A DNA stretch of 64,000 bases, taken from Sutcliffiella sp. FSL R7-0096. Lineage in GTDB: Bacteria > Bacillota > Bacilli > Bacillales > Bacillaceae_I. The position numbers and the translations under genes were made by a program. Below, piece by piece: positions 30,010-51,522 of this stretch (its first letter is position 1; every line of letters begins with the position of its first letter). The stretch lies in assembly GCF_038595065.1 (NCBI RefSeq), contig NZ_CP152003.1, positions 662,001 through 726,000 of the forward strand, written 5' to 3'. Under the pieces are notes generated by a model that ran no database searches, was not told the origin of the DNA, and saw only the letters and a program-made list of their open reading frames with translations.

Positions 30010-31836
30010 ATGCATCAATCAGCCAAACAAATTGCAGAAAATGCAACGTTTCAAGCTTTTATAAATAGTTACTTAAAAGAAGTGGACTGCGGAAATTGGA
30101 TGGGCATGAAGGAATGGGTGCGGGAGCAGAAACCATCCATGACGCTATCAGGGGAGTCGGTAGTGGAGATGGAACTACCAGGGCAGTCTGCCACCTTTGC
30201 GGTGGAAGTGATGTACCGATCGCAAACAGGCAGGCATCGACTTGGATTTGTTCTTAAATATTGTGACCGAAGCCGCGAATGGGTTCCCCAAGACAGGCTG
30301 CCGATGATGATCGCCCTTATCCATGAGCTCCACCTGATGGCCAAATCAAATGGGTGCCACGAACTTGCATCCCATTATGATGAACTGGTGCTCAGGCTGA
30401 TTGAGAGCTACCAGACGATGGCGACTTACATAGAAACTAGAAGGGAAGATGGAATGAGCCTTTATTCTGAAGATAGCTCTTTCCTGGAAGCCGAGCAATC
30501 GCTGTTGTTTGGTCACTGGCTCCACCCCACACCAAAGAGCAGGCAGGGAATGGCTGGCTGGCAGCATCCAAGCTATGCCCCGGAGTTGAAAGGCCGTTTT
30601 CAGCTGCACTATTTTCAACTAGACCGGGAGATGGTGAGGGAAGGGTCCAATGATATGAGACGTGCGAGCGACATGATTCTCCATTCCTTATCGAAATGGC
30701 TGCCGCAGCTCACTGTACCGCAACATGCTTGTCTCATTCCAATCCACCCTCTTCAGGCACAATGGCTGCTTCAGCAGGATTATGTCAAAAAGGCGATGGA
30801 AAAGAATCTCATCAAGGATCTTGGGCCAATGGGGGCTTATTATTCAGCCACCTCTTCGATCAGAACCGTTTACCATCCTGATGAAGAATGGATGTACAAA
30901 TTCTCCGTTCCGGTAAAAATTACGAACTCTTTACGAACGAATCGACTCCATGAGCTAAGGGCGGGTACAGAAATAGCGAAGCTGATGGAAAAAGTGCGTT
31001 TTACGGAAAAATATCCAAGGTTCCGGATGATTGAAGATCCTGCCTATATTACTGCTCAATTTCCGGGAAAAAAAGAGTCGGGATTCGAGGTCATCATTCG
31101 ATCCAATCCATTCCCGGAAGGAAAAGACAAAGGCATCAGCACGATCGCGGCATTGGTGCAGGACCCTCTGCCAAATGAAAGTTCAAGATTGAAGCAGACA
31201 ATCGATAGGCTTTCGCAATCAAAGCGGCGCACACTTGAGGATGTAAGCATGGATTGGTTCGAGAAGTATTGGAAATGTTCGATTGAGCCACTTATCCGTT
31301 TGTATGACGAACACGGAATTGCGCTCGAGGCCCATCAGCAGAATAGTGTCCTCGACCTTACATCTGGCTATCCCGAAGCGTATTACTACCGCGATAATCA
31401 GGGGTATTATCTATCAAACTCTTATAGGGGAATTTTACATGAGCAACTTCCGTCCCTGGAAGAATGTCCGGAGCTTTTTTATGAGGATGCGCTCATTCAG
31501 GAAAGGTTTACGTACTACCTTTTTATGAATCAGCTATTTTCGGTCATTTGCCGCTTTGGTCAGGAAGGCCTCCTGAGTGAAGATAGGTTACTTGCATGGT
31601 GCCACCAACAGCTTACTCGACTGGAATTGGAGCTCACAGGACAAGGGAGAGCATTTATCCGCCATATACTCCATTCCGAGAAACTGTCCTATAAAGCCAA
31701 TCTGTTAACCCGTTTTCATGATGTGGATGAGCTGATGGCGGAGAATGAACAAGCCGTTTACACCTATATCCCCAATCCCTTTACCCTTGTGAAGGAGGAA
31801 GAGAACTATGCAGAAGCTGCAACCGCTGCCGTCTAG
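30010..31836 (+). CDS. asbA: AsbA, petrobactin NIS synthetase (IucA/IucC family)
   Basis: The 608-residue length and motifs match NRPS-independent siderophore synthetases: IPIHPLQAQW (His about 246), the SSIRTVY and FSVPVKITNSLRT ATP/citrate region and ALEAHQQNSVLDL (His about 442). Family knowledge from Bacillus anthracis: AsbA adenylates citrate and condenses it with spermidine. It is first in a tight six-gene order identical to asbABCDEF, which makes the assignment firm. The start at 30010 has AAAGGATGG upstream. Iron control is predicted from the three Fur boxes. Confidence 0.95.
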   Translation: MHQSAKQIAENATFQAFINSYLKEVDCGNWMGMKEWVREQKPSMTLSGESVVEMELPGQSATFAVEVMYRSQTGRHRLGFVLKYCDRSREWVPQDRLPMMIALIHELHLMAKSNGCHELASHYDELVLRLIESYQTMATYIETRREDGMSLYSEDSSFLEAEQSLLFGHWLHPTPKSRQGMAGWQHPSYAPELKGRFQLHYFQLDREMVREGSNDMRRASDMILHSLSKWLPQLTVPQHACLIPIHPLQAQWLLQQDYVKKAMEKNLIKDLGPMGAYYSATSSIRTVYHPDEEWMYKFSVPVKITNSLRTNRLHELRAGTEIAKLMEKVRFTEKYPRFRMIEDPAYITAQFPGKKESGFEVIIRSNPFPEGKDKGISTIAALVQDPLPNESSRLKQTIDRLSQSKRRTLEDVSMDWFEKYWKCSIEPLIRLYDEHGIALEAHQQNSVLDLTSGYPEAYYYRDNQGYYLSNSYRGILHEQLPSLEECPELFYEDALIQERFTYYLFMNQLFSVICRFGQEGLLSEDRLLAWCHQQLTRLELELTGQGRAFIRHILHSEKLSYKANLLTRFHDVDELMAENEQAVYTYIPNPFTLVKEEENYAEAATAAV

Positions 31837-33538
31837 TAAGGTGGGAAAACGGATAGTCCGACAGCTGCTCGAGGCAATCCTTTTTGAAGGGTTGATGGAT
31901 ATGGAAAAAACAGCTCCCAAGCTGGATGACTCTCTAGTAACCTTCACCATTTTCGGAAAAGGACGGACCTACAGCTGCGAGGGGAAAATCACTGCGTTTG
32001 ACCGGGTGCGAATAAAAGAGGAAAGCATCCGCACCTTGCGTCCTGATGGCTCTAGCACAGTAACCAGGATGGAAGAATTGGTGGAAGACCTTGTATCAGA
32101 TCCTGAGAAAAAGAACTTGCTTATTCGTGAGCTTGCCCAAACAGCCTTACTGGTGGAGTGGAATGAAGCGAATCTCTTAGCACCCCTCTCCAGGCGGGCA
32201 TTCCCATACGAAGAACTGGAATCGGAGATATGGGAAGGGCATCCGTATCATCCTTGTTTCAAGGCAAGGACCGGTTTTACGCTCAAAGATCATGCTGCAT
32301 TTGGACCCGAAGCAAGGCAGTCATTTAGCCTGCAATGGGCGGCTGTCAGACGGGAGCACAGCAAGATTGTACTCCTAGAGGATGAGAAGGACTTCTGGGA
32401 AAGGGAGCTCGGAACTTCCGTGTTCAATCAGATGCTTGCTGAACTACAAGAGCGAGGCAAAGATTTTCAAGAATACACGTTTCTGCCGATCCACCCGTGG
32501 CAGGTGCAAGTTGCACAGGATGAGATGGACAAAGGGGAGATTGTTCTTATAAAAACGACAGGGGATCCTTACCGGGCAACACAGTCCGTCCGAACACTAT
32601 GGAATGTGTCGAATCCTGAGAAAGCGCATGTCAAACTGTCGATGAACATGGTAAATACCTCATCGCTAAGAACCTTGGACACGCACGCCATCTGTGCGGC
32701 ACCTCCCATCTCAAAATGGATCGCGGATACGGTGGAAAGGGATCATTTCTTAAAAGAAGAGGCTTCCTTCATCGTTTTGAAGGAATATGCGGGGGTGGCC
32801 TATCAACCTTCTGAAAAGACGGAAATTAAGCTTGGAGCCATTTGGCGAGAAAGTATCCGGCTTTACATGGAAGAGGAAGAGGAGGCTGTGCCTTTTACGG
32901 CCTTGCCCTTGATTGAGCGGGATGGCTTACCGTTTTTGGATGACTGGCTGAAGCGCTATGGAACCGAAAACTGGTTGAAGAGATTGATCGAAGTAAGTGT
33001 GGTGCCGGTCTGGCATTTGCTTGTCTCCCATGGTATTGCCGTGGAGGCACATGCACAAAATATGATTCTATTACATAAGAATGGCTGGCCAACCCGTGTT
33101 GCCCTGAGGGATTTTCACGACAGCACAGAGTATCATCATGCATTTTTGAAAGAACCGAACAGAGTCCCGGATTTTTCAAGGATACATGAGCAGTTTAAAA
33201 AAGGAGAACCTGACGAGTATTATTGGATGTCTTCTGTGGAAGCCTTGAGAGAGCTTGTGATGGATACGTTGTTTGTTTTTCATTTGAGTGAATGGTCCTT
33301 TGCACTACAGGAGCAGTATGGATATAGCGAGGAAAGATTCTGGGAGATGGTACAGGAAGCAATAGCCGGGCACTTGAACCGCTATCCTGAATTACTATGC
33401 AGGAATAGCATGCTTGAGCATACGGCACCTACCATCTATGCCGAGTCGCTTCTGAAAAGGAAGACCCGAAGTGAAGAGGTTGGCGGATTACGCCATCTTG
33501 TCACAAATTCTTTAGCAGATAGCAAAAAGGAGAGTTGA
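31808..33538 (+). CDS. asbB: AsbB, petrobactin NIS synthetase (IucA/IucC family)
   Basis: ATG 31808 lies inside the end of asbA (29-base overlap) behind AAGGAGG. The 576-residue protein has FLPIHPWQVQVA (His about 229), KLSMNMVNTSSLRT and AVEAHAQNMILLH (His about 415), the standard NIS synthetase set. In petrobactin synthesis AsbB performs the second citrate-polyamine condensation, alternating with AsbA. The C-terminal ferric reductase-like transporter segment of IucA/C proteins is present. The overlap predicts translational coupling. Confidence 0.95.
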   Translation: MQKLQPLPSSKVGKRIVRQLLEAILFEGLMDMEKTAPKLDDSLVTFTIFGKGRTYSCEGKITAFDRVRIKEESIRTLRPDGSSTVTRMEELVEDLVSDPEKKNLLIRELAQTALLVEWNEANLLAPLSRRAFPYEELESEIWEGHPYHPCFKARTGFTLKDHAAFGPEARQSFSLQWAAVRREHSKIVLLEDEKDFWERELGTSVFNQMLAELQERGKDFQEYTFLPIHPWQVQVAQDEMDKGEIVLIKTTGDPYRATQSVRTLWNVSNPEKAHVKLSMNMVNTSSLRTLDTHAICAAPPISKWIADTVERDHFLKEEASFIVLKEYAGVAYQPSEKTEIKLGAIWRESIRLYMEEEEEAVPFTALPLIERDGLPFLDDWLKRYGTENWLKRLIEVSVVPVWHLLVSHGIAVEAHAQNMILLHKNGWPTRVALRDFHDSTEYHHAFLKEPNRVPDFSRIHEQFKKGEPDEYYWMSSVEALRELVMDTLFVFHLSEWSFALQEQYGYSEERFWEMVQEAIAGHLNRYPELLCRNSMLEHTAPTIYAESLLKRKTRSEEVGGLRHLVTNSLADSKKES

Positions 33539-33539
33539 G

Positions 33540-34775
33540 ATGTTTTTTGTAAATGATCAGTATTACACACTGGATGATTTGGAAAGGCAATATAGAGAGT
33601 TTGAAAAAATTCCATATTTAAAAGATTGCCGGAATAGAAGATTGGCAGTTTGCATGCCGGATGTCTTTCAATGGCTTGCACTTTGTTTATTTGTGCGCAA
33701 AAAAGGGGGATCCATCGTGCCGATCCATCCTTCCGTACCAAAGGAAGGGGCGATCCGGATGGCGAAGTCGGCAGGAAGCCATTTCTTGTTTTTTGAAAAT
33801 ATCGACTCCCCCCTCCACCTGGCAGATCAACAAAACGAAAGGGAAGGCGTACTGGTGCAAATGAGCTCTGGTACGACCGGGTCTCCTAAATGCATCGAAC
33901 GTACATGGGATTCAATTGAGACCGAGCTTGAAAGCTATGTATCTGTATTGTCGCTTGATCAGGATACCACGTCCATCGTTGCCTGCCCGGTCACCCATTC
34001 CTATGGCTTGATCTGCGGGGTGTTTGCCTGCATGAGGCGCGGGGCGGAACCGGTCATTCTGACAAATATGAATCCAAAATATGTGCTTAAAAAGCTGAAG
34101 GAACATCCTAAGCATATTCTCTATGGAGCACCTGCACTCTTGTATATCTTATCGAGCCTGGTCCGTGATGATCAACGGTTTGATGCGGTGATGACATCAG
34201 GCACCCTCATGCCTTCAGCATGGCTTGCGGCATTAAAGAACGTTTCCAATCGCGTGTCTCAACAATACGGCTGCTCGGAAGCTGGATGTGTGGCTATACA
34301 GCCGGATGTGAGCGACTCGTGTGACATGGGCTATGCCCTTCCACATCTGAAGGTGGAGGCCGGAACCGTGGATGCTCCTGGTGAAATCATCATTCATGAC
34401 AAGGAGAAAACCATCCATACAAAAGACCTTGGTTATCTGGAAAACGGAATATTGTCCTTTCTGGCAAGGATGGATGACACCATCAATGTGGCTGGCTTGA
34501 ACGTCTACCCGCAGGAAGTGGAGGACGTTTTGATGGCAGAGCCAAGGATCCAAGAGGCGGTTGTGTATAAAAAGGTCCATCCGCTTTCAGGGGAAAGAGT
34601 ATGTGCACAGTATGTCTGCTCCGCTCCAATAGAGGAGCAGGAGTTACGGGAATGGTGCAGGGATTATCTCGCTCCCTATCAAGTACCGATGGAATTCATC
34701 GAGGTGGAAGCAATCGAGAAGCTGCCAAACGGCAAGATCAGCCGAAAAATGCTTGGTGAAGGGGTGTTGGCATGA
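33540..34775 (+). CDS. asbC: AsbC, 3,4-dihydroxybenzoate-AMP ligase
   Basis: The 411-residue adenylate-forming enzyme is shorter than acyl-CoA synthetases, as AsbC is. The phosphate loop MSSGTTGSPKCIE is at residues 108-120, QQYGCSEAG is the A5 motif, and ARMDDTINVAGLNVYPQEVE and LPNGKISRK are the C-terminal core motifs. It activates 3,4-dihydroxybenzoate and loads the carrier AsbD. The gene starts one base after the asbB stop with AAAAAGGAGAG as its site, and its stop overlaps asbD (ATGA). Confidence 0.94.
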   Translation: MFFVNDQYYTLDDLERQYREFEKIPYLKDCRNRRLAVCMPDVFQWLALCLFVRKKGGSIVPIHPSVPKEGAIRMAKSAGSHFLFFENIDSPLHLADQQNEREGVLVQMSSGTTGSPKCIERTWDSIETELESYVSVLSLDQDTTSIVACPVTHSYGLICGVFACMRRGAEPVILTNMNPKYVLKKLKEHPKHILYGAPALLYILSSLVRDDQRFDAVMTSGTLMPSAWLAALKNVSNRVSQQYGCSEAGCVAIQPDVSDSCDMGYALPHLKVEAGTVDAPGEIIIHDKEKTIHTKDLGYLENGILSFLARMDDTINVAGLNVYPQEVEDVLMAEPRIQEAVVYKKVHPLSGERVCAQYVCSAPIEEQELREWCRDYLAPYQVPMEFIEVEAIEKLPNGKISRKMLGEGVLA

Positions 34776-38961: not shown

Positions 38962-40152
38962 ATGAAGTTAGTTGTCATTCCATCAGGATTTAAAGAATGT
39001 TTGGATGCTTGTGAGGTTGCATCGGCTATGGAGAGAGGTGCGAAAGCCTTTGATGCCTCGATAGATATGGAAGTCATCCCGATGATTGATGGTGGGGAAG
39101 GGTTTGCAAAACGAATTGCTGATTTGAAGGGTGGAGAAATCGTCTATCATGATGCGACAGGACCAGTCGGACAAACGATTAAAAGTCATTTTGGCATGTA
39201 CAGAGAAAACGGGAATGTGTACGCTGTAATCGAAATGGCTGCCGTTGCAGGATTAAGCCTGGTACCGTCCATGCAGAGAAACCCGCTTCTTACTAGCACA
39301 CAAGGTGTCGGGGAGCTAATTATAGAAGCTATTAATCAAGGTGCTACCAATCTATTAATTGGTTGTGGAGATTCCGGTACATCTGATGGTGGAGCAGGTA
39401 TGGCGCAAGCACTAGGGGTTAAGTTTTATGATAACCAAGACATGTTGTTAAACATTCAAGGAGCGAAGGATTTGCCAAAGGTCGCTAAGCTTGATATCAG
39501 CGAGATAGACCCACGCCTCCAGGACATTACAATGGATGTTGCATGCAATTGGACTAACATTTTGTGCGGTGAAAAAGGTGTGGCAAGGGTTTTCGGCCCG
39601 CAAAAGGGAGCGTCGACTCAACAGGTGGAAGAGCTTGCATATGCACTGGAACATTTTGCATCCCTTATTGATCGTACAAAAGGTCACGATGTCCGGACCA
39701 TCCCAGGCGGAGGGGCATCTGGCGGATTGGGTGCCGGCCTTGTTGCGTTTGCAGGAGCAACACTCCATCCTAGATTTGAAGTCATCATGCAATATATCGA
39801 TATGGAAAAAGCGATTTCTACGGCAGATGTTATCTTAACAGCGGAAGGAAGCTTAGATTTCCAGACGCCGAACGGCAAAATACCAGCAGAGGTGGCACGT
39901 ATCGCAAAAAAATACAACATCCCGGTCATCGCGCTGACAGGGACGATTGGAAAAGGCGCTAAACGCAACTGTCTAATTGGCATCGATGCCTACATAAGCA
40001 TCATCCCAAAACCGACGTCCTTGGAGCATGCAATAAAAAAAGCGCCAAAATGGATTGCGGAAAGTACAGAAATGGTGTTAAGACAGATTTTTGTTGGGGT
40101 AACCATCGCCCAAAAACAAAGTTATTATCAAAAGGAACGTGACTTGGTATGA
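38962..40152 (+). CDS. Glycerate 2-kinase (GarK/GlxK family)
   Basis: The 396-residue protein shows glycerate kinase type 1 motifs: PSGFKECLDACEVASAMERG at the start, MIDGGEGF, EMAAVAGL, GCGDSGTSDGGAGMAQALG, PGGGASGGLGAGL and LTAEGSLDFQTPNGKIP. It phosphorylates D-glycerate at the expense of ATP, feeding glycolysis. ATG 38962 has AAAGGAGG upstream. The stop overlaps the start of an SLC13-type permease gene, so the pair probably takes up and phosphorylates glycerate or a related acid. Confidence 0.94.
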   Translation: MKLVVIPSGFKECLDACEVASAMERGAKAFDASIDMEVIPMIDGGEGFAKRIADLKGGEIVYHDATGPVGQTIKSHFGMYRENGNVYAVIEMAAVAGLSLVPSMQRNPLLTSTQGVGELIIEAINQGATNLLIGCGDSGTSDGGAGMAQALGVKFYDNQDMLLNIQGAKDLPKVAKLDISEIDPRLQDITMDVACNWTNILCGEKGVARVFGPQKGASTQQVEELAYALEHFASLIDRTKGHDVRTIPGGGASGGLGAGLVAFAGATLHPRFEVIMQYIDMEKAISTADVILTAEGSLDFQTPNGKIPAEVARIAKKYNIPVIALTGTIGKGAKRNCLIGIDAYISIIPKPTSLEHAIKKAPKWIAESTEMVLRQIFVGVTIAQKQSYYQKERDLV

Positions 40153-41606
40153 GTACTCGTACCGAAAAACATGATAAAAAAAACTGGATCATCAATTATT
40201 TCTTACAAATGGATAGGAAAATAAAAGTCTTATCGAGCCTCCACTTATTCTTTTTCATACTAATAATGGCGACAGGAGGAGCATTGAGTTATCAAGGGAA
40301 AGTCGCATTATTTTCCTTCCTTTCCGCCATGGCTTTATGGATCTTAACATCTCTTCCTGCGGGATATGTGGCAATAGGACTTATCTTCTTCATGATTGTG
40401 ATGCGTGCACAACCGTCAGAGGTGCTTTACCACTCGCTATCGGAAGAAGTGGTCTGGCTCATGATCGGCGCATTTATCATTGGGGAAGCATTCAGAAAAT
40501 CGGGTCTTGCTGACAGGCTCTCGTCATTTGTCCTTCAAAGGTCATCAAATGTGTCTTCGGCATTGGACGGGGTGAGCACCATCTTGATGCTCACGGCCTT
40601 CTTTATCCCTTCCACATCAGGAAGGGCAGCCTTGGCAAAGCCTTTTATTGGAAAATTCGGGGAGCGGCTGTCAGTCAAAGAGCAAAGCCTCTTATCACTC
40701 CTAGTACCAGTCATTATATTAATGAGTACATCGGCAACATTGATCGGCGCGGGCTCCCACATAATCGGAGTCAGCCTCTTGGAAAGCACAGTGGGAGAAG
40801 GAATCTCCTTCATTCAATGGTTTATTTGGGGAATGCCTTTTGCCATTGCCATTTCAGCGCTCTCTCTTTACGTCATAAAATGGAAGATGTGGCCAAAAGA
40901 GGAGGAGATGGATCCAAAAGTAGGGTTTGACGCAGATAGAAGCTCACAGTTACAAGCCGAACAGCCACCATTTGGCAAAAAAGAAAAGCAGACGATCCTA
41001 TACGTCCTATTATTGATTATCGGTTGGGTCACAGAAAGTGTGCATCCCTTTGATATAGCATTCATTACCATGGTAGGGGCTTTCTTTTTCATGATGCCAA
41101 CGTATGGAGTCATCAGCTGGAAGGAAGGTATACAGTCAGTGTCGTGGAATCTAATATTATTCGTTGCAGCAGCTACTGCGCTGGGAAAAGCCTTGGTGGG
41201 TACGGGAGTTGTCAACTGGGCACAAGAGCATATGCTATCCTTTCTCGGTGTCTTTGAATCGGCGCCGGAGTGGTTACTGGTTCTGGCCGTCCTGATCGTT
41301 TCGGTCACCAGTCACCTATATATCACATCCCATACCACCCGTGCCGTCGTCATTATACCTGGCATCATCTTGTTCAGCCAAACAGTCGGTATCGACCCGG
41401 TCGCAATGGTATTTATCAGTCTGATCGGCATAAACTACTGCGTCACCTTTCCAGTAAGCTCCAAAGCATTGCTCCTATTTTATGAAGAAGGTAAAACCAG
41501 CTTTGAAGCCAAGCACCTTCTCAAAGCCAGCAGCATCCTCATGCCGCTCTATATTGCCGTCGTCATGCTGTTTTACTTTACCTACTGGCAGTGGACGGGG
41601 ATGTAA
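40149..41606 (+). CDS. SLC13/DASS-family anion permease
   Basis: The 485-residue protein has about 11-12 membrane helices. The transport signatures are IGEAFRKSGLADR, FFIPSTSGRAALAKP and the matching second-half VSVTSHLYITSHTTRAVVIIPG; paired Ser/Thr-rich hairpins of this kind are typical of DASS/SLC13 carriers for dicarboxylates and other anions. It overlaps the glycerate kinase gene by four bases (ATGA). Glycerate or a precursor such as tartronate or glucarate breakdown acid is the likely substrate by context only. Confidence 0.87.
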   Translation: MSTRTEKHDKKNWIINYFLQMDRKIKVLSSLHLFFFILIMATGGALSYQGKVALFSFLSAMALWILTSLPAGYVAIGLIFFMIVMRAQPSEVLYHSLSEEVVWLMIGAFIIGEAFRKSGLADRLSSFVLQRSSNVSSALDGVSTILMLTAFFIPSTSGRAALAKPFIGKFGERLSVKEQSLLSLLVPVIILMSTSATLIGAGSHIIGVSLLESTVGEGISFIQWFIWGMPFAIAISALSLYVIKWKMWPKEEEMDPKVGFDADRSSQLQAEQPPFGKKEKQTILYVLLLIIGWVTESVHPFDIAFITMVGAFFFMMPTYGVISWKEGIQSVSWNLILFVAAATALGKALVGTGVVNWAQEHMLSFLGVFESAPEWLLVLAVLIVSVTSHLYITSHTTRAVVIIPGIILFSQTVGIDPVAMVFISLIGINYCVTFPVSSKALLLFYEEGKTSFEAKHLLKASSILMPLYIAVVMLFYFTYWQWTGM

Positions 41607-42561: not shown

Positions 42562-42608
42562 ATTGGCTGTAATCTTAAACAATGAATAAGGATAATGAGG
42601 TGAATAAA

Positions 42609-43298
42609 ATGAAGGTTATTGGTCTTATTGGTGGAATGAGTTGGGAATCTTCTGTTGAGTATTATCGGATTATCAATCAAGAGGTTAAAAGAAGAATGGG
42701 GGGATTACATTCGGCGAAATGTCTATTATACAGTGTCGATTTTCAAGAAATTGAACGTTACCAATCAGAAGGCGCATGGGAAAAGGCTGGTGAAGTGTTA
42801 GGTGATGCAGCGAGTTCTTTAGAAATGGGAGGAGCGGACTTTATTGTCATTTGTACGAATACGATGCATAAAGTTGTAAATGACATCCAATCGAAAATAA
42901 CTATTCCCCTATTGCATATCGCAGATGCAACCGCAGCCCAAATTAAAGAGAAGGGAATTAATTCGGTTGGATTACTAGGCACAAGGTACACAATGGAGCA
43001 AGACTTTTATAAATCACGTTTGGAGATGAACGGAATAAAAGTCATTGTACCAAATGAGGAAGAAAGAGTGATAATAAACAAAGTCATTTATGAAGAGTTA
43101 TGTTTGGGTAAAATTCAACAAAAATCTAGGGATTACTATAAAAAAGTAATCCAAGGCTTAATTGAATCTGGAGCCAATGGGATTATCTTAGGCTGTACAG
43201 AAATTGGATTATTGGTAAAACCGGAGGATTCAGATGTTCCTCTATTTGACACGGCCTACATCCATGCTTTTGAAGCGGTGAATATGTCATTAGAATGA
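42609..43298 (+). CDS. Aspartate/glutamate racemase family protein
   Basis: ATG 42609, behind GAGGTG, gives 229 residues; an ATG at 42582 in frame has no site. GLIGGMSWESSVEYYRIINQ opens the protein. The two catalytic Cys are in VICTNTMHKV and LGCTEIGLLV. LLGTRYTME and LFDTAYIHA complete the RacX/YgeA-type pattern. These enzymes racemise aspartate or other amino acids without cofactor. D-amino-acid supply for wall or spore is a family-based guess. Confidence 0.9.
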   Translation: MKVIGLIGGMSWESSVEYYRIINQEVKRRMGGLHSAKCLLYSVDFQEIERYQSEGAWEKAGEVLGDAASSLEMGGADFIVICTNTMHKVVNDIQSKITIPLLHIADATAAQIKEKGINSVGLLGTRYTMEQDFYKSRLEMNGIKVIVPNEEERVIINKVIYEELCLGKIQQKSRDYYKKVIQGLIESGANGIILGCTEIGLLVKPEDSDVPLFDTAYIHAFEAVNMSLE

Positions 43299-44590: not shown

Positions 44591-44623
44591 AAAAGCAAGA
44601 CCATCCTTTTTAGTGGTCTTGCT
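44591..44623 (-). terminator. Terminator of the FadR-type regulator gene
   Basis: AGCAAGACCA (44594-44603) pairs with TGGTCTTGCT (44614-44623); on the minus strand TTTTTATTTTTA follows. Confidence 0.85.
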
Positions 44624-44624
44624 G

Positions 44625-45353
44625 TCAGTCTTCATTTTTAAAATTTGTCTCTATAAATTCATTTTTTCGAGCTTTTAGCTTTTCCAAACTGTTTGATAAA
44701 TGGTTATACATTGCTGCTTCTGCACTTTTTGCATCTCTAAGGGAAATGGCCTTCAGAATAGATTGGTGTTCTTCATAGACTTGCTTTTTCTTTCCCTTAA
44801 TTTTCGTGTTGATGGTAAGAGAAGCTCTTAATGCACGATAATAGGTATCAGATAGGTTCTCCTGCAACGTTATGAGCACTTGATTTTTAGTAGAATAAAT
44901 AATGGACTGATGGAAGAGGAAGTCTGCTTGGTCATTAATTTTTTCTGGATTATTCAATTCTTTAAAGAGTATTTCCTGAGCTTGATACAGTTTGTTCAGA
45001 TCTTCATCATCGTGTCTTTCGGCAGCAAGTGATGCGGCTTTTGTTTCCAGAATAATTCTGGTTTCCAACAGCTCCATTATCTGTGTGTACGAAATGACCT
45101 CGATTAAAGGTTGATTGAGGAGCCTTTCGAGCGGCAAAGGTCTGACCCAACTTCCCCCCCCATGGATAGATTCTATGATGCCGTGGGAAGATAGGGCACT
45201 TAGAGCTTCACGGATAGGGACCCTGCTCACATTAAACATTTTTGCTAATTCATTCTCTGATGGAAGTTTGGTATTGACCGGAAATTCTCCCGATTTTATT
45301 CTGTTCTTAATTTCGTCCATAATTTGATGGGATACTCGTTTTCTTACAATCAT
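44625..45353 (-). CDS. GntR-family regulator, FadR subgroup (FCD domain)
   Basis: ATG 45353 has AAAGGAG upstream (242 residues); the longer frame overlaps a promoter-like region. The N-terminal winged helix is typical of GntR (IKSGEFPVNTKLPSENELAK, FNVSRVPIREALSALSSHGI). The C-terminal FCD domain binds metal and a carboxylate effector (HQSIIYSTKN and EEHQSILKAISLRD carry conserved Asp/His positions). Recognition sites of this group follow TNGTNNNACNA, and two exact TTGTAATACAA sites stand between the transporter and hydrolase genes upstream. I infer that it represses both divergent units until an organic acid is bound. Confidence 0.9.
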   Translation of the reverse strand: MIVRKRVSHQIMDEIKNRIKSGEFPVNTKLPSENELAKMFNVSRVPIREALSALSSHGIIESIHGGGSWVRPLPLERLLNQPLIEVISYTQIMELLETRIILETKAASLAAERHDDEDLNKLYQAQEILFKELNNPEKINDQADFLFHQSIIYSTKNQVLITLQENLSDTYYRALRASLTINTKIKGKKKQVYEEHQSILKAISLRDAKSAEAAMYNHLSNSLEKLKARKNEFIETNFKNED

Positions 45354-45371
45354 ACGGATTCTCCTTTTATT

Positions 45372-45427
45372 AAAAACCCTTCCATTTCCTAATAGTATAA
45401 CATGATATTCCAATAGTCATGGAAGGG
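45372..45427 (-). terminator. Attenuating hairpin between transporter and regulator genes
   Basis: CCCTTCCAT (45377-45385) and ATGGAAGGG (45419-45427) form a 9-bp stem; on the minus strand a TTTTT run follows. The loop region includes a TATACT box, so the regulator may be made both by readthrough and from its own promoter. Confidence 0.65.
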
Positions 45428-45440
45428 CATTTTTCAATGC

Positions 45441-46805
45441 TTAACTTATTTTTTTGTTATAGGTGGTATTATTTTGGCTGGGCCCCCATAAACCAAAGTG
45501 TTTATGAATGGCGATGATAGCTGCTCCAATAAGAAGAAGGAGAATCGGCATTACCCAAGGATAGCCAATGGAAAATAAGATAGGAGAAAAAGTTATAATA
45601 ACAATTTCTACCGGAACCATCCCTATGTATCCCAGTGCATAGTCGTCTGTCGTTTTGCTTTTAAGTTCCGGGTCTACAATGCGAAGAAGGGCTAACCCCA
45701 TTGCGACCGTTCCTGTACTCCAACCCCAGCCGAATAATGACTTTTCAAACCAGAAATTCTTAAAGATATTTGGACCGATAAAACGAAATATTAGATAAGC
45801 CCAAAACGTTCCGAAGACAAATAACATGATCAAAGGTACAGCATAATCGATTACAACGGTGATATTGATGGATGCAATACCAATTGCAACCAAATAATCT
45901 GTTGCACTTCCCCCTATTCTTTCCATTACACGATGGTCCACATAGGAATCAGCATTCATTTTTCTAATAGACATTTGAAATAATAGAGCAATAACGAAGG
46001 CGATGCTCAGTAAAGGAACAGCAATTCCTAATAGTGATCCTAATTTACTAGTCAGCCAATAGGATATTCCAACGACGAAAGCAACGATTGACAGGTGTAG
46101 GACCAATGGGTCAATGGAGCTTGGGGAAACAGTTTCCTTTCCCATTCCGATACGCTTATCCGGGTGGGTCAGGCCCGATTTTAGTTCATTTGGAAGATCG
46201 TTAAAACTAGAGATGAAATTAGTATTTCCTTGTTCTGTGTTCTTTTTAATTAGAAATAACCCACCCAGGACTGCTACGAGTATTCCGACAGTAGCAGATG
46301 TCATCCCAAGCGTCATTGCCTCTTCCCAGCCATATTTACTGAATCCCTCTCCGATGGCAGCAGCTGTACCGTGTCCTCCTAGGAAACCAGCTCCTAATAT
46401 TAATCCGAATCCACTTGGTAAATCTTTAAAAATTTGATTAATAACGATAAGGCCGAACAGGGCTCCGCCACCCCACATCAATAGTGTAAGGAGCATGGAA
46501 TACGACCACATTTCCCTTACCCTATGAATGATTTCTTTAACGTTCACCTTTGCAGCTCCAAGAGGAATGGAAGCGAAGATGACTGCAATGAGCAGTCCCG
46601 GATAGGTGGAGAATTGGGTGGAAAAAGGTAACAAGTTTATTCCACTGGGACCCAGCCCCAACCCTATAAAACCAGCAATCATACTTGCAGGGAGAAACAA
46701 TCTTTGAATCCACTGAACTTTTGCCCTCAAGATAGTTCCAAGTAGAAGTAATCCAGAGATAATACTAATATCGACCATTAATGACCAAATTGAAAAATCG
46801 TTCAT
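45441..46805 (-). CDS. ESS/GltS-like sodium:organic-anion symporter
   Basis: The 454-residue protein has about 10-12 membrane helices in two inverted halves. GAGFLGGHGTAAAIGEGFSKYG and the matching WGWSTGTVAMGLALLRIVDPE resemble the twin Gly-rich hairpins of the ESS glutamate:sodium symporters (GltS). The central hydrophilic loop (NDLPNELKSGLTHPDKRIG) is longer than usual. A ribosome site AAAGGAGG lies before ATG 46805. Substrate is probably a carboxylate consumed by the divergent catabolic operon; glutamate itself is less likely given the neighbours. Confidence 0.85.
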   Translation of the reverse strand: MNDFSIWSLMVDISIISGLLLLGTILRAKVQWIQRLFLPASMIAGFIGLGLGPSGINLLPFSTQFSTYPGLLIAVIFASIPLGAAKVNVKEIIHRVREMWSYSMLLTLLMWGGGALFGLIVINQIFKDLPSGFGLILGAGFLGGHGTAAAIGEGFSKYGWEEAMTLGMTSATVGILVAVLGGLFLIKKNTEQGNTNFISSFNDLPNELKSGLTHPDKRIGMGKETVSPSSIDPLVLHLSIVAFVVGISYWLTSKLGSLLGIAVPLLSIAFVIALLFQMSIRKMNADSYVDHRVMERIGGSATDYLVAIGIASINITVVIDYAVPLIMLFVFGTFWAYLIFRFIGPNIFKNFWFEKSLFGWGWSTGTVAMGLALLRIVDPELKSKTTDDYALGYIGMVPVEIVIITFSPILFSIGYPWVMPILLLLIGAAIIAIHKHFGLWGPSQNNTTYNKKIS

Positions 46806-46826
46806 TATTCATCCTCCTTTTAAACT

Positions 46827-46840
46827 AAGTAAGCGCTACC
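46827..46840. promoter_or_regulatory. cre-like site on the transporter side
   Basis: AAGTAAGCGCTACC resembles a CcpA site and mirrors the better match at 46927, but departs from the consensus at several positions. Confidence 0.3.
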
Positions 46841-46842
46841 AT

Positions 46843-46859
46843 TTGTAATACAAGTATAC
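46843..46859. promoter_or_regulatory. FadR-type operator, transporter side
   Basis: TTGTAATACAAGTATAC contains TTGTAATACAA, an exact fit to the TNGTNNNACNA rule for FadR-subgroup GntR regulators. It is the inverted twin of 46909-46925. Confidence 0.8.
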
Positions 46860-46908
46860 AGCGAATTTAGAAAATTACAATTATATATTGAAAAAAATAA
46901 AATAACTA

Positions 46909-46925
46909 GTATACTTGTATTACAA
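46909..46925. promoter_or_regulatory. FadR-type operator, catabolic operon side
   Basis: GTATACTTGTATTACAA is the exact reverse complement of 46843-46859, 49 bases away. Both operators flank the AT-rich region where the divergent promoters must lie, which suits co-repression or looping. Confidence 0.8.
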
Positions 46926-46926
46926 G

Positions 46927-46940
46927 TTAAGCGTTTACAT
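46927..46940. promoter_or_regulatory. Probable CcpA (cre) site before the catabolic operon
   Basis: TTAAGCGTTTACAT matches the core AANCGNWNNCW of cre sites and abuts the FadR-type operator, suggesting added carbon catabolite repression. Confidence 0.5.
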
Positions 46941-46970
46941 TTGTTAAAATAATTTTCAGAGGTGATGAAA

Positions 46971-47894
46971 GTGTTAGAGAAAAAAGTGGAGTTTTACAGT
47001 GATGGTTTAAAGTTAAAAGGTAGCTTCTATTTTCCGGATCAGTTTAATGAGTTGGAAGAACATCCTGCTATTATCATTAATTCTGGTTATCAGGGATTCA
47101 ATGAGTTTTATCCAAAGCTATTCGCTGAAAAACTTACAAAAAAAGGATATATTTGCTTTGGTTTTGATTATCGCGGCTTTGCGGACAGTGAAGGAGAAAA
47201 AGGAAGAGTACTCTTAGAAGAACAGGTCCGCGATATCCAGCATGCAATCAGTTACATCTCCACTAATGAAAATGTAAATGAAAATCAAATCGGACTTATA
47301 GGGTGGGGAATGGGAGCTTGCAACGTAGTTCATGTTGCGGCAAAAGACAAGCGAGTAAAGGCTGTTGCAGGGTTAAACGGATTCTATAATGGAGAAAGAT
47401 GGTTGAAGTCTATACACTCCTATATAGAGTTTGCAGAAATGGAAGAAACCCTTAAAGAAGATCGTAAATTAAGGGCAACTACCGGCAAGTCAAAATCTGC
47501 CCCTACTTTCATTCATTATCCACTTGATCCTGCAACAAGGGATTACGTTGAAAACGAGTTGGCTTCTGTATATGGATTTGGCCACGAAACGCAGTTGTTA
47601 TTCACGGATTCCATTTTAGAAACCAATGCAGAAGATGTGGTTGGGAATATTTCTCCAGTCCCTTTATTTATAGGCCATGGAAAGGATAATCTTCTTCATC
47701 CATATGCTGAATCGGTCTCTCTTTTTAAGAAATCGGATGCTCCTAAGGTATTCTTCAGAATTGAAGGGAAGCACAACGACTTTATGTTTGGGGATCATCC
47801 TGAGTTTATTCGCCTAAATAATCAACTCGACAAATTTTTTCAAGAAGCTTTAAAAGGTGATTTATATGAAAAATCCATTTCACCCATTGCTTGA
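46971..47894 (+). CDS. Alpha/beta-hydrolase fold protein lacking the nucleophilic serine
   Basis: A GTG at 46971, six bases after GAGGTG, is the best start (307 residues); GTG 46962 and ATG 46965 overlap that site. The fold is clear: FDYRGFADSEGEKGR after strand 4, then LIGWGMGACN at the nucleophile elbow, PLFIGHGKDNLLHP with the acid, and GKHNDFMFG with the His. The elbow reads G-W-G-M-G, so Gly (about residue 113) replaces the Ser, Cys or Asp of active enzymes. It may be a decarboxylase-like, binding or otherwise non-hydrolytic member, or an enzyme using another mechanism. First gene of a four-gene operon; its end overlaps the next gene by 29 bases. Confidence 0.82.
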   Translation: MLEKKVEFYSDGLKLKGSFYFPDQFNELEEHPAIIINSGYQGFNEFYPKLFAEKLTKKGYICFGFDYRGFADSEGEKGRVLLEEQVRDIQHAISYISTNENVNENQIGLIGWGMGACNVVHVAAKDKRVKAVAGLNGFYNGERWLKSIHSYIEFAEMEETLKEDRKLRATTGKSKSAPTFIHYPLDPATRDYVENELASVYGFGHETQLLFTDSILETNAEDVVGNISPVPLFIGHGKDNLLHPYAESVSLFKKSDAPKVFFRIEGKHNDFMFGDHPEFIRLNNQLDKFFQEALKGDLYEKSISPIA

Positions 47895-48750
47895 AGGAGC
47901 ATACGAGTTTCATGTTCATAGTTCTCCAAGTATTTTTGAGCGTAAACAAACGGATTGGGAACTTATAGAAGACGCCAAGCGGGCAAAGATGGGCGGTTTG
48001 GTCCTAAAAAGTCATGAATCTTCCACTGCAGAACGGGCCTTTCTATTAAATGAAAAAGATCCTGCTGTCCGAGTGTATGGAGGAATCGTGTTAAATCAGC
48101 ATGTTGGGGGGCTTAATCCATATGCTGTAAATACTGCATTAAAGATGGGCGGTAAAGTCGTTTGGTTTCCGACACTTTCTGCAGGGCAGCATCAACAGTA
48201 CTTTAAGCAGAAAAAAACGAAGCTGTTTAATGGGAATCCGCTACTATCCGAAACAACTGTTGAGGTTGAGAAAGACGGGCAATTAATCGATGAAATAGAG
48301 GATATATTCCGCCTTATTAAAGAATATGAAGCTGTTTTAGCTACCGGTCATTTGTCTTTAAGGGAGCAGCATATTATTGTCGGAGCAGCGCTAGAAGCCG
48401 GTGTGAAAAAAATAGTCATTCAGCACGCAGACATGGGAATATCGAGGATTCCGCTTGAAGACCAAAAGTATTTTGCCTCGCAAGGATGTATGATTGAAAA
48501 GTGTCTATTAGCCTGCAGTTCTGATTTTAATGATCTAACTATTGAAGAAATGGCAAAAACAATAGATATTATTGGACATGAATCTTGTATCCTTGTAACG
48601 GATTATGGCCAGGTTCATCATGAAGCTCCAATTTATGGATTAAGTCGATTTGTGGAAGAACTTTTACGGTATGGGATAAGCGAAGAGCAAATAATAAAGA
48701 TGGTGCAAGACAATCCTCGTTCCTTATTAGGTGTTGAAGATAATGAGTAA
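47866..48750 (+). CDS. DUF6282-like metal-dependent hydrolase-fold protein
   Basis: ATG 47866 follows AAAAGGTGA and gives 294 residues. The motif FHVHSSPS near the start, then LKSHESSTAERA, a middle VLATGHLSLREQ and VIQHADMG, and late DYGQVHH look like the metal ligands of an amidohydrolase/PHP-type barrel. I associate the set with the DUF6282 group, whose function is not established. Embedded between a fold-only hydrolase and a GlcDF-type oxidase it is probably an amidase, lactonase or similar ring-opening or cleaving step (inference). It overlaps glcD by eight bases. Confidence 0.72.
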   Translation: MKNPFHPLLEGAYEFHVHSSPSIFERKQTDWELIEDAKRAKMGGLVLKSHESSTAERAFLLNEKDPAVRVYGGIVLNQHVGGLNPYAVNTALKMGGKVVWFPTLSAGQHQQYFKQKKTKLFNGNPLLSETTVEVEKDGQLIDEIEDIFRLIKEYEAVLATGHLSLREQHIIVGAALEAGVKKIVIQHADMGISRIPLEDQKYFASQGCMIEKCLLACSSDFNDLTIEEMAKTIDIIGHESCILVTDYGQVHHEAPIYGLSRFVEELLRYGISEEQIIKMVQDNPRSLLGVEDNE

Positions 48751-50152
48751 AATATCAAATGAAGTACTGGATAAGTTAAAAGATATCGTTCACGAAACGA
48801 GAATTCTTACGAAGAAGAAAGATCTTTACTCCTACAGCTTTGATGCCTCGTTTGGAGAATATCTGGCTGACATCGTCCTTCAGCCACAATCAAAAGAAGA
48901 AATAAGCAAAATTCTGTTACTTGCGAACACCTATCACATACCTGTCTATCCAAGGGGAGCCGCTACTTCTTTAAGTGGCGGACCGCTCCCCACGATGGGC
49001 GGTATTGTTCTTGATATGGCCCAATACCCTAAATCCTTGAAGATTGATAAAGAAAATATGCTTGCCATTGTAACACCAAGCGTGATTACCTCGGAGATAC
49101 ATGAAAAAGCCGAGTTGGAAGGGCTGTTCTATCCGCCTGATCCAAGCAGTTCTCATGTTTCAACAATCGGGGGAAACATTCTTGAAAATTCGAGTGGTCC
49201 CAAAGGATTGAAATATGGTACAACGAAAGAATATGTAATCGGGTTGGAAATGGTCACCCCGACCGGGGATATTGTTCGTACTGGTGGGAAAACAGTAAAA
49301 AATGTTACTGGGTTTGACCTGACAAGGCTCATTGTCGGCTCAGAAGGGTTGCTTGGGGTAGTGACGGAAATCACCTTACGCCTTATTCCGAAGCCTGCCT
49401 ACAAAATGACATTGATCGCATCCTTTCAAAGTGTCGTTGATTCAGGAGTAGCCATAACTAACATATTGTCAGCGGGAATCCTGCCGGCTGCCATGGAGCT
49501 TATGGATAAATATTGTATACAGGCAGTCGAGCATTACCAGCCTTCAGGTCTACCGTTAGATTCGGAGGCTATCGTCATTATTGAGGTAGACGGGCATAGG
49601 GCGTCAGTTGAAGAGGAAATAGAAAAGTGCTCTGACATATGCAGGTCTTTTCCAAACTCAAGGGTAAGGGTAGCAAAAACGGAAGAGGATCGCCTTAATA
49701 TATGGAAAGCTCGGAAAATGGTATCTCCTGCCATCACCCAGCTAGGACCAACAAAAATATCGGAAGATGCCACGGTTCCTAGAAGTAAAATTCCGGAGAT
49801 GATTGAAAAGCTTCATTTCATACGGGAGAAATATGAACTGAACTTAGTCGTTTTCGGTCACGCAGGCGACGGTAACCTGCACCCGAACATCATCACTGAT
49901 AAAAGAAATATTACTGAAATGAAAAAAGTCGAGTTGGCGGTAGGGGAGATCTTCCAGGCGGCAATCGACCTTGGGGGAACCCTATCAGGTGAGCATGGCA
50001 TCGGAATTTTAAAGGCTCCTTATATGAGAAATGAGTTGGGGTTAACACTTGATTTAATGAAAAAGATTAAAGAGGCATGGGATCCGAACAATATTCTCAA
50101 TCCTGGAAAAATGTTTCCTCAGAAGGGGCAAACTAAGGTGGTGTTAACGTAG
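48743..50152 (+). CDS. GlcD-like FAD-linked 2-hydroxyacid oxidase subunit
   Basis: ATG 48743 (469 residues) overlaps the previous stop and has AGGTG upstream. PRGAATSLSGGPLPTMGGIV and PPDPSSSHVSTIGGNI are FAD-binding type-4 motifs. The C-terminal FAD-oxidase domain has VFGHAGDGNLHPNI and GTLSGEHGIG. It belongs to the glycolate/D-lactate dehydrogenase group and would oxidise a 2-hydroxy acid to a 2-keto acid, passing electrons to the iron-sulphur partner encoded next. The exact substrate is unknown. Confidence 0.92.
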   Translation: MSKISNEVLDKLKDIVHETRILTKKKDLYSYSFDASFGEYLADIVLQPQSKEEISKILLLANTYHIPVYPRGAATSLSGGPLPTMGGIVLDMAQYPKSLKIDKENMLAIVTPSVITSEIHEKAELEGLFYPPDPSSSHVSTIGGNILENSSGPKGLKYGTTKEYVIGLEMVTPTGDIVRTGGKTVKNVTGFDLTRLIVGSEGLLGVVTEITLRLIPKPAYKMTLIASFQSVVDSGVAITNILSAGILPAAMELMDKYCIQAVEHYQPSGLPLDSEAIVIIEVDGHRASVEEEIEKCSDICRSFPNSRVRVAKTEEDRLNIWKARKMVSPAITQLGPTKISEDATVPRSKIPEMIEKLHFIREKYELNLVVFGHAGDGNLHPNIITDKRNITEMKKVELAVGEIFQAAIDLGGTLSGEHGIGILKAPYMRNELGLTLDLMKKIKEAWDPNNILNPGKMFPQKGQTKVVLT

Positions 50153-50153
50153 T

Positions 50154-51494
50154 ATGAATAGTACGGAAGCATCAAAAGTGCTTCATTCGAAAGCCTATGA
50201 TGAGCTAAATCAGTGTATACAATGTGGGTATTGTCTTCCGGCATGTCCCACATATGCGTCCATGCAAACGGAAAGTGCATCTCCTAGAGGGCGTATTAAT
50301 TTAGTGAAAATGGCAGCAGAAGGAAAAATTGATATACTGGAAGATTTAAAGGAACCCATCGATCTTTGCCTAGGATGTCGTGCTTGTGAAGTGGCTTGCC
50401 CTGTAGACGTCCCTTATGGATCCATATTGGAGCATGCCAAAGAAAGCATTTATAACATGGAAGTTCAATCCAAAACCAATAACCGATACAAGGATTTTGC
50501 GTTAAACCAGCTCTTTATGAGACCGGCAGCAATGAAAATTTCTAGTAATCTATATCACTTTTATCAGCAAAGTGGAATTCAAAAGGTGGTCAGGTCCACC
50601 AATCTTACCGAAAAGCTTGTCCCTAATGTTGGAGGCTATGAAAAGGCCCTTCCAAAAGTCCCCTCTAAGAAATATCAGATTAAAAGAGGAAAACTCTATA
50701 AGTCGAAAACAGGGAAAGCAAGTAAAACAGTTGCCTTGTTCCTCGGTTGTATCAGTGACGCACTTTTCTATCACGTCAATTATCTTACATTGGAGCTTCT
50801 AAGGATATCAGGCTGTGATGTGTATGTACCCGACGAACAAACCTGTTGTGGCGCTCTTCACGCTCATCAAGGGCAAATGAAACAATCTCGTCAATTAGCA
50901 AAGGAGAATTTACTGGCATTTGAACAATACAAAGTAGATGCAATTATAACAAACGCCGGTGGCTGTGGTGCAATTCTCCAGGAATATGAGCATTTACTAA
51001 ACGAAGAAACTGATATTGCTTGGAAGGAAAAAGCTCGAATTTTCTCTGCTAAAATTAAAGATATAGCTGAAATTCTACACTCCCTAGATAAGCTGCCTTT
51101 CACTGAAAATATAAATAAAACAGTAACATATCAGCCATCTTGTCATCTAAATAATGTTCAAAAAGCAGGTGCATATCCAGAGAAGTTGATTAAACAAATA
51201 TCTGGCCTGCATTATGTGGAATTACCGAGTAAGAACTCATGCTGTGCCTCGGGAGGAGTTTATAACATTGAACAACCTACCGAATCAATGAAAATCCTTG
51301 GAGGCAAAATGGAAGAGGTTAATCAAATAAAACCTGATATTATCGTCACCTCTAATCCTGGCTGTCTTATTCAAATGACGCATGGAATTAAAACTTTTTC
51401 TGAAAATAAGCAACCGGAATCAATACATTTAGTAGAACTTTTGGCAAGAGCGTGCGGTGTTTATACGGAAGATACTAAGAAGCTAAATAACTAA
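50154..51494 (+). CDS. GlcF-like iron-sulphur subunit
   Basis: The 446-residue protein has two 4Fe-4S motifs (CIQCGYCLPACPTY and CLGCRACEVACPVDV) and two Cys-rich CCG-type domains (EQTCCGALHAHQG and SKNSCCASGGVYN). This is the GlcF/LutA-type electron-transfer subunit that works with GlcD and delivers electrons to the membrane quinone pool. It starts two bases after glcD, and a terminator follows its stop. Confidence 0.92.
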   Translation: MNSTEASKVLHSKAYDELNQCIQCGYCLPACPTYASMQTESASPRGRINLVKMAAEGKIDILEDLKEPIDLCLGCRACEVACPVDVPYGSILEHAKESIYNMEVQSKTNNRYKDFALNQLFMRPAAMKISSNLYHFYQQSGIQKVVRSTNLTEKLVPNVGGYEKALPKVPSKKYQIKRGKLYKSKTGKASKTVALFLGCISDALFYHVNYLTLELLRISGCDVYVPDEQTCCGALHAHQGQMKQSRQLAKENLLAFEQYKVDAIITNAGGCGAILQEYEHLLNEETDIAWKEKARIFSAKIKDIAEILHSLDKLPFTENINKTVTYQPSCHLNNVQKAGAYPEKLIKQISGLHYVELPSKNSCCASGGVYNIEQPTESMKILGGKMEEVNQIKPDIIVTSNPGCLIQMTHGIKTFSENKQPESIHLVELLARACGVYTEDTKKLNN

Positions 51495-51522
51495 AGGAGC
51501 CAAGATTACAATGGCTCCTTTT
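51493..51522 (+). terminator. Terminator of the catabolic operon
   Basis: AAAGGAGCCA pairs with TGGCTCCTTTT around a 9-base loop, directly after the glcF stop. Confidence 0.85.

Follow-up and report, generated by a model that had tools for sequence, protein, structure and literature searches.

An apparently dedicated organic-acid catabolic operon with a serine-less hydrolase fold and DUF6282 in Sutcliffiella

In a 64,000-nucleotide stretch of the Sutcliffiella sp. FSL R7-0096 genome (contig NZ_CP152003.1, positions 662,001 to 726,000; hereafter the window, whose coordinates are used throughout), the genes at 44625-51494 make up what looks like an inducible, patchily distributed catabolic operon, apparently for the uptake and breakdown of an organic acid. 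The individual proteins all fall into known families or folds; what is new is the enzyme set as a catabolic operon, and literature searches on the gene combination returned nothing relevant. Specifically, a reading-frame check recovers six open genes in two divergent units: a GntR-family regulator with an FCD domain and an ESS-family symporter on one strand, and on the other an alpha/beta-hydrolase-fold protein (ABH), a DUF6282 protein and the 2-hydroxyacid dehydrogenase subunits GlcD and GlcF (together GlcDF). This gene content and order, with Pfam domain calls above gathering score for all six proteins, agree with a first-pass annotation of the DNA. So do the tight packing of the plus-strand genes (an overlap of 29 nt between ABH and DUF6282 and of 8 nt between DUF6282 and GlcD, with GlcD and GlcF 1 nt apart) and the terminator at each end (Table 1).

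The best reading, and one that we hold with moderate confidence, is that a masked 2-hydroxy acid, in a cyclic or amide-bearing form, is unmasked by hydrolysis and then oxidized by GlcDF. The FCD regulator would bind two CTTGTAnTACAAG operators, which extend into the -10 boxes, and so repress both units until an acid inducer releases it; the position and partial conservation of the sites point to this step. ESS carriers transport carboxylates with sodium, and on this family knowledge the symporter would bring in the carboxylate. DUF6282, as a predicted metal-dependent enzyme, would open the cyclic or masked acid (lactone, lactam or imide), as its modelled fold, metal-site residues and other gene contexts suggest. 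Because its nucleophile is lost, ABH could not use a serine acyl-enzyme; its step might instead be a water-, His- or acid/base-mediated hydrolysis, a hydration, an isomerization or a decarboxylation. GlcD and GlcF, whose families together convert 2-hydroxy acids to 2-oxo acids and pass the electrons to the quinone pool, would act last, on the 2-hydroxy acid that results. We infer the order of the steps, the substrate and the cargo of the ESS carrier, and any one named substrate deserves much less confidence than the general reading.

That this is a dedicated unit, as had been proposed, and that its gene set is co-conserved are borne out by a neighbourhood search. Scanning one genome for each species yielded 80 DUF6282 loci (stretches of up to 10 kb on each side, some contigs being short), and the core consists of the 48 whose DUF6282 shares at least 45% identity with that of the window, two of them (L024 and L026) from one genome. 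Within the core, GlcD is present in 43 loci, GlcF in 38, ABH in 31, ESS in 18 and the FCD regulator in 19, and there are further recurrent partners: a sensor kinase (19), a sigma-54 response regulator (20), a double-domain nitrilase (15) and a second kind of nitrilase (11). At the score limits applied, none of 12 partner families turns up in the 32 loci with a distant DUF6282, which are mostly from Chloroflexi. Where ABH is missing from the core stretch (17 loci), whole-genome searches of 16 found it in 11. Of the nine of these whose ABH was placed, six (L113-L118) have it in one gene run with the remaining operon genes; in L119 it accompanies MmgE/PrpD and the importer, some 20 kb away from the DUF6282 end, and in L123 and L124 it is on another contig. 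Among 299 order-level genomes, DUF6282 scores over its cut-off in 15 and ABH (E <=1e-60) is found in 11, all within those 15 (Fisher P = 4e-17, over genomes that are related and not independent). On the strength of the partner counts in core versus distant loci and of this co-occurrence, a chance neighbourhood is rejected. The locus is accessory and may be mobile, since ABH occurs in none of the 10 other genomes of the genus in the order-level sample and the gene set is also found on a Priestia filamentosa plasmid (L105). Plasmid annotation is that of PLSDB and is incomplete; on this plasmid, the GlcD match (L105:10891-12293) consists of two overlapping pieces in different frames, with no CDS listed.

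The claim that the hydrolase fold lacks its serine also holds, and it holds across the clade. ABH has the fold of serine alpha/beta hydrolases, with neither the serine nucleophile nor the acid of the triad: Gly116, within a GWGMG motif, occupies the nucleophile position and Asn243 the acid position, and His271 is kept. GWGMG, together with Asn at the acid position, is present in 37/37 operon copies, and among 120 database relatives none has Ser at the nucleophile position and 119 have the Asn motif. The alignment retains 77 invariant columns, which argue against a dead protein. ABH thereby defines a clade of alpha/beta-hydrolase-fold proteins in which the serine is uniformly lost and many invariant residues are kept; literature searches on such a serine-less fold returned nothing relevant.

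Three elements go beyond the first-pass annotation: palindromic predicted operators, a second architecture that is built on sigma-54 control and an ABC importer and includes nitrilase and MmgE/PrpD, and a haloarchaeal version. Between the divergent units lies a perfect inverted repeat of 17 nt, with its arms at 46843-46859 and 46909-46925; each arm sits within a CTTGTAnTACAAG palindrome, and the two palindromes are 72 bp apart. The extended site TATACTTGTATTACAAGT, allowing up to three mismatches, has three matches in the window, all in the gap, versus 0.08 expected; two of them are one site read on both strands. The perfect CTTGTAnTACAAG palindrome has a single copy (O2) in the 4.9-Mb genome, and with one mismatch there are 16 genome sites, not above the 22 of the control. 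Four relatives that share the divergent layout (L019, L020, L021 and L105) also have both palindromes, at a distance of 72 or 82 bp. In 22 upstream regions, hand-chosen by the analyst, a site with at most two mismatches is present in 14, and shuffles of single bases equal the best site in 0-14 of 300. The promoter-like sites that the operators overlap are weak evidence, because the scanned region holds fewer sigma-70-like sites (13) than its shuffles (28.3). The two predicted sites at the regulator's own promoter are palindromes of the TNGTNNNACNA type, the consensus of GntR-FCD proteins. The simplest reading is that the FCD protein would regulate its own gene, repressing both units. Cre-like (CcpA) sequences, picked out by eye against the cre consensus and imperfect, lie near both promoter-like sites (46828-46841 and 46926-46939). 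Elsewhere in the genome, two more CTTGTAnTACAAG-like palindromes, spaced by 38 bp, precede a 225-aa frame of no evident relation (G000:C1:327177 and 327215, to 327227; L181); they are probably sites of another regulator.

Table 1 Features of the locus and its control region (window coordinates)
Feature	Position	Strand	Evidence
GntR-family regulator with FCD domain	44625..45353	-	Pfam FCD 79 bits, GntR 72.5 bits; mechanical ORF to 45413
ESS-family symporter (Glt_symporter PF03616)	45441..46805	-	53.6 bits vs gathering score 26
ABH, alpha/beta-hydrolase-fold protein	46965..47894	+	several alpha/beta hydrolase Pfam models; Gly116, Asn243, His271
DUF6282 protein	47866..48750	+	Pfam; predicted amidohydrolase-superfamily metal enzyme (H16, H18, H162, H187, D246)
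GlcD-type FAD-linked 2-hydroxyacid dehydrogenase subunit	48743..50152	+	Pfam FAD_binding_4 + FAD-oxidase_C
GlcF-type iron-sulfur electron-transfer subunit	50154..51494	+	Pfam CCG + 4Fe-4S
Intrinsic terminator, ESS-regulator unit	44594..44623	-	perfect 10-bp stem, 10-nt loop, then T-run
Intrinsic terminator, catabolic unit	51493..51521	+	perfect 10-bp stem, 9-nt loop, then T-run
Predicted operator O1 (TTTGTAATACAAG)	46842..46854	.	1 mismatch to CTTGTAnTACAAG; overlaps -10 of minus-strand promoter-like site
Predicted operator O2 (CTTGTATTACAAG)	46914..46926	.	perfect CTTGTAnTACAAG; overlaps -10 of plus-strand promoter-like site
Sigma-70-like site TTGTAA-16-TATACT, before ESS-regulator unit	46853..46880	-	consensus match 9/12; only minus-strand site of the gap
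Sigma-70-like site TTGAAA-16-TATACT, before catabolic unit	46888..46915	+	consensus match 10/12; best of the region

Across genomes, the catabolic core occurs in two architectures. Type I, the form in the window, joins FCD regulator and ESS carrier to ABH-DUF6282-GlcD-GlcF, with a 600-aa nitrilase-family protein alongside in L019, L020, L036, L041, L045 and L105. In type II, ESS and FCD give way to an ABC importer whose binding protein is of the ProX/OpuBC type, together with a sigma-54 response regulator and a Cache-PAS histidine kinase, and MmgE/PrpD and a nitrilase are added; L075 is mixed, with ESS together with kinase and response regulator. The type II nitrilase is either NAD-synthase-glutaminase-like, with Glu-Lys-Cys, or the 600-aa protein just mentioned, which has two domains (L064:4349-6187 and 13 orthologues) and in which the first CN_hydrolase domain keeps Glu-Lys-Cys in 14/14 and the second has Gly for Cys in 14/14. 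Each of the 24 type II loci scanned has one or more -24/-12 elements (TTGGCAc-N5-TTGCw) shortly 5' of importer, DUF6282, ABH or nitrilase genes, and a few further hits lie elsewhere. These are 20 distinct loci (L063/L113, L027/L116, L028/L117 and L038/L120 are each one genome twice), which have 38 hits, whereas single-base shuffles give 3.6 and never more than 9. A related gene set lies on three haloarchaeal plasmids, where DUF6282 and a second amidohydrolase gene are joined by a nitrilase-family gene, an ABC importer of the type II kind and a FAD/Fe-S gene of the GlcD-GlcF type, which is fused in L112 and L127 and annotated as two pieces in L128. One of the plasmids also has MmgE/PrpD; ABH was not found on L112, the one haloarchaeal plasmid searched. 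Nor was ABH found, at the limit used, in the genomes of two Jeotgalicoccus loci. There, a metallo-beta-lactamase-fold gene lies 5' of DUF6282 with an Nramp gene in between, an L-2-hydroxyglutarate oxidase gene lies 3' of GlcF (L056: 555 vs 299 bits), and TRAP importer genes follow further on. This oxidase gene is not accepted as proof of the substrate.

The binding protein of the type II importer aligns best with ProX/OpuBC-type proteins, and at eight pocket positions of Archaeoglobus fulgidus ProX, K-Y-T-N-Y-R-F-Y is found in 27 of 31 alignment rows (some being one protein twice), among them those of Paracoccus, Ancylobacter and two haloarchaea. The departing rows are L056, L061, An_SBP2 and L112, the last a truncated hit whose full Halobaculum protein fits. 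In Paracoccus denitrificans plasmid 1 (L125) and Ancylobacter (L126), the importer with this signature stands beside a nitrilase, MmgE/PrpD, a GlxA regulator and a Rieske oxygenase whose nearest match is glycine betaine monooxygenase GbcA (528.5 and 541.1 bits, below the cut-off of 670); these clusters perhaps serve a related unnamed zwitterion pathway. Pocket signature and GbcA-like neighbourhood together suggest a carboxylate-bearing zwitterion as the type II substrate, and nitrilase, MmgE/PrpD and the betaine-type importer would extend the core to a nitrogen-bearing precursor. The whole system could be a route for a nitrogen-bearing zwitterion, a betaine-like or amide-bearing osmolyte or plant compound, with the ESS form taking the same compound or its deaminated product. 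The coupling of the core to binding protein, nitrilase and MmgE/PrpD in the sister operon fits this alternative, which is possible if on the unlikely side: the window locus has neither ABC importer nor nitrilase, ESS carriers are known for carboxylates, and the two proteobacterial stretches, with no annotated DUF6282 or GlcD/GlcF, may serve another compound.

A further alternative concerns the chemistry of DUF6282, a name not found in the literature searched. The protein is predicted to be a TIM barrel of the amidohydrolase superfamily, and, with strands placed by the model, it carries the HxH, H, H and D metal-site residues at strands 1, 5, 6 and 8. Across 63 sequences, H16 and H187 are invariant and H18, H162 and D246 are conserved in at least 90%. 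Searched by sequence against solved structures, it has no significant match (three listed, best E 0.25); in the Foldseek list for the model, 2,6-dihydroxybenzoate decarboxylase ranks level with lactonases. DUF6282 could thus be a decarboxylase or hydratase and ABH the ring- or ester-opening enzyme, and the decarboxylase version counts against hydrolytic unmasking. In line with it, loci without ABH have, one gene from DUF6282, a second amidohydrolase (haloarchaea) or the metallo-beta-lactamase-fold gene (Jeotgalicoccus). We consider this rather unlikely, as ABH has neither the nucleophile nor the acid found in its hydrolytic relatives, and as DUF6282 across the Bacillota has neighbours of an N-heterocycle type, where ring opening is expected.

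In those Bacillota stretches (L160-L179), DUF6282 repeatedly adjoins DHO_dh-like, molybdo-hydroxylase, Amdase and HpcH/HpaI genes, possibly as part of reductive N-heterocycle pathways. GlcD, GlcF, ABH and ESS occur in none of the 20; FCD-like matches appear in L163, L169, L177 and L179, a nitrilase-like match in L174 and a response-regulator and a metallo-beta-lactamase match in L176. The scan covered 68 of 79 neighbours, 11 short or antisense-looking frames being dropped, and for L163 an antisense frame was taken as DUF6282. A weaker LhgO-like match (44%) in L163, about 5 kb from DUF6282, is a hint only, because carrier-like frames lie between. On a Thermus oshimai plasmid (L108:7330-11996), DUF6282 sits in a gene cluster for the cleavage of aromatic rings, at a point where one might expect a 2-pyrone-4,6-dicarboxylate lactonase, and is a candidate replacement for LigI. 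Elsewhere, a partial extra copy lies immediately 5' of the full one (L034:9426-10864). In all, the analysis gives DUF6282 a probable superfamily, a predicted active site and a set of recurrent partner genes.

The GlcDF pair raises the question whether the locus is a second glycolate, lactate or glycerate locus, in which ESS would import the 2-hydroxy acid directly for oxidation and DUF6282 and ABH would handle minor lactone or ester forms. Both subunits have the expected make-up, FAD-linked oxidase domains with HAGDGNLHP and GEHGIG in GlcD, and two CxxCxxCxxxCP, one CCG and one CCA in GlcF. GlcD reaches 479.4 bits, below the curated glycolate-oxidase equivalog cut-off of 567.9. GlcF reaches 225 of 333 bits, a weak test because the GlcF of another genomic locus also misses (259.9). 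That other locus combines a CdaR-type regulator (Diacid_rec), GlcF and a GlcD above the glycolate-oxidase cut-off (587.8 vs 567.9). In B. subtilis, glycolate oxidase GlcD-GlcF corresponds to ysfCD. A canonical glycolate locus is rejected for this gene set, because one lies elsewhere in the genome and the GlcD here is below the cut-off; a match to a characterized glycolate or lactate locus, which the first-pass annotation had named as a refutation alongside a lack of co-conservation, was not found. For a second such locus speak the closest solved relatives of GlcD, among which glycolate oxidase (304 bits) and LctD, a subunit of lactate dehydrogenase (277), outscore D-2-hydroxyglutarate dehydrogenase (148; YdiJ-type curated model, 146.7 vs 1350 bits), and the regulator, which has both the GntR winged helix-turn-helix and the FCD domain and scores best against NanR, LldR, PdhR and GlcC models, each below cut-off. 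A glycerate kinase and a CitMHS/Na_sulph_symp carrier also lie 3 kb off. Given the separate CdaR-type locus, and given that such acids need neither DUF6282 nor ABH, yet both are usually present, we regard this explanation as improbable. That ABH is non-catalytic or quorum-quenching, in a locus for signal-lactone breakdown, is highly improbable: its best curated match is the UilS acyl-homoserine-lactonase model and the Jeotgalicoccus metallo-beta-lactamase-fold protein is weakly AiiA-like (36.9 bits, cut-off 375), yet ABH scores 106.1 against a cut-off of 400 bits, has no nucleophile and, with its 77 invariant columns, is unlikely to be a dead protein.

Several observations weigh against the hydrolytic unmasking of a 2-hydroxy acid followed by GlcDF oxidation. 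Three loci that are largely complete in other respects have no GlcDF, and two have DUF6282 without partners. The operator is not universal, 8 of the 22 upstream regions having no CTTGTAnTACAAG site with at most two mismatches, and the genome of the window has no orthologue of either nitrilase. Among named compounds and pathways, pantothenate, isonicotinate/citrazinate, carnitine, ectoine, iminodisuccinate and 2-hydroxyglutarate lactone were considered, each fitting some genes and none fitting all. A broader proposal, put forward tentatively, is that Bacillales and haloarchaea share an undescribed pathway for an osmolyte or plant compound, a 2-hydroxy acid that is zwitterionic or masked by an amide or a ring, with a non-serine reaction of ABH in the bacterial form, ring opening by DUF6282 and two unrelated import and control modules. 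The binding protein of the sister operon, the operator of the regulator and GlcDF itself provide direct handles on the substrate, and a missing pathway thereby becomes testable.

On the level of gene calls, homologue ends place the likely starts at ATG 45353 for the regulator (mechanical TTG 45413), ATG 46965 for ABH, ATG 47866 for DUF6282 and ATG 48743 for GlcD. A stock terminator scan takes loops of at most 8 nt and therefore missed both terminators. Elsewhere in the window, the glycerate kinase gene overlaps that of the CitMHS/Na_sulph_symp carrier (38962-41606), a second hydroxy-acid unit; a gene of the Asp/Glu/hydantoin racemase family lies at 42582-43298, and at 30010-34775 an AMP-binding enzyme comes after two IucA/IucC-FhuF proteins, in what resembles an NIS-type siderophore cluster.

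Each part of the system can be set against a known counterpart. With glycolate oxidase GlcD-GlcF (TIGR00387, PRK11274), the locus shares the FAD-oxidase domains, the two-cluster Fe-S subunit with CCG/CCA and the adjacency of the genes, but its pair falls below the curated cut-offs and has another regulator and other neighbours. The ESS glutamate:sodium symporter family shares its Pfam membership with the carrier, at a modest score. In comparison with UilS-type and YcjY/7qjm-type alpha/beta hydrolases, the ABH clade has Gly for the serine and Asn for the acid, whereas a Rhizobium pRL8 relative (33%) retains GTSFG. The DUF6282 model shares the HxH after strand 1 and the H, H and D after strands 5, 6 and 8 with amidohydrolases such as phosphotriesterase-like lactonases, dihydroorotase, isoaspartyl dipeptidase and LigI; it differs from the superfamily in having, by eye, no evident carboxylate or lysine bridge residue after strand 4 and a conserved K-x-H-E after strand 2. 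Finally, type II operons share the Cache-PAS kinase, the sigma-54 response regulator and the -24/-12 elements with two-component systems of the AtoS/AtoC type, but their proteins score below the AtoS and AtoC cut-offs and are linked to a betaine-type ABC importer and the catabolic core.

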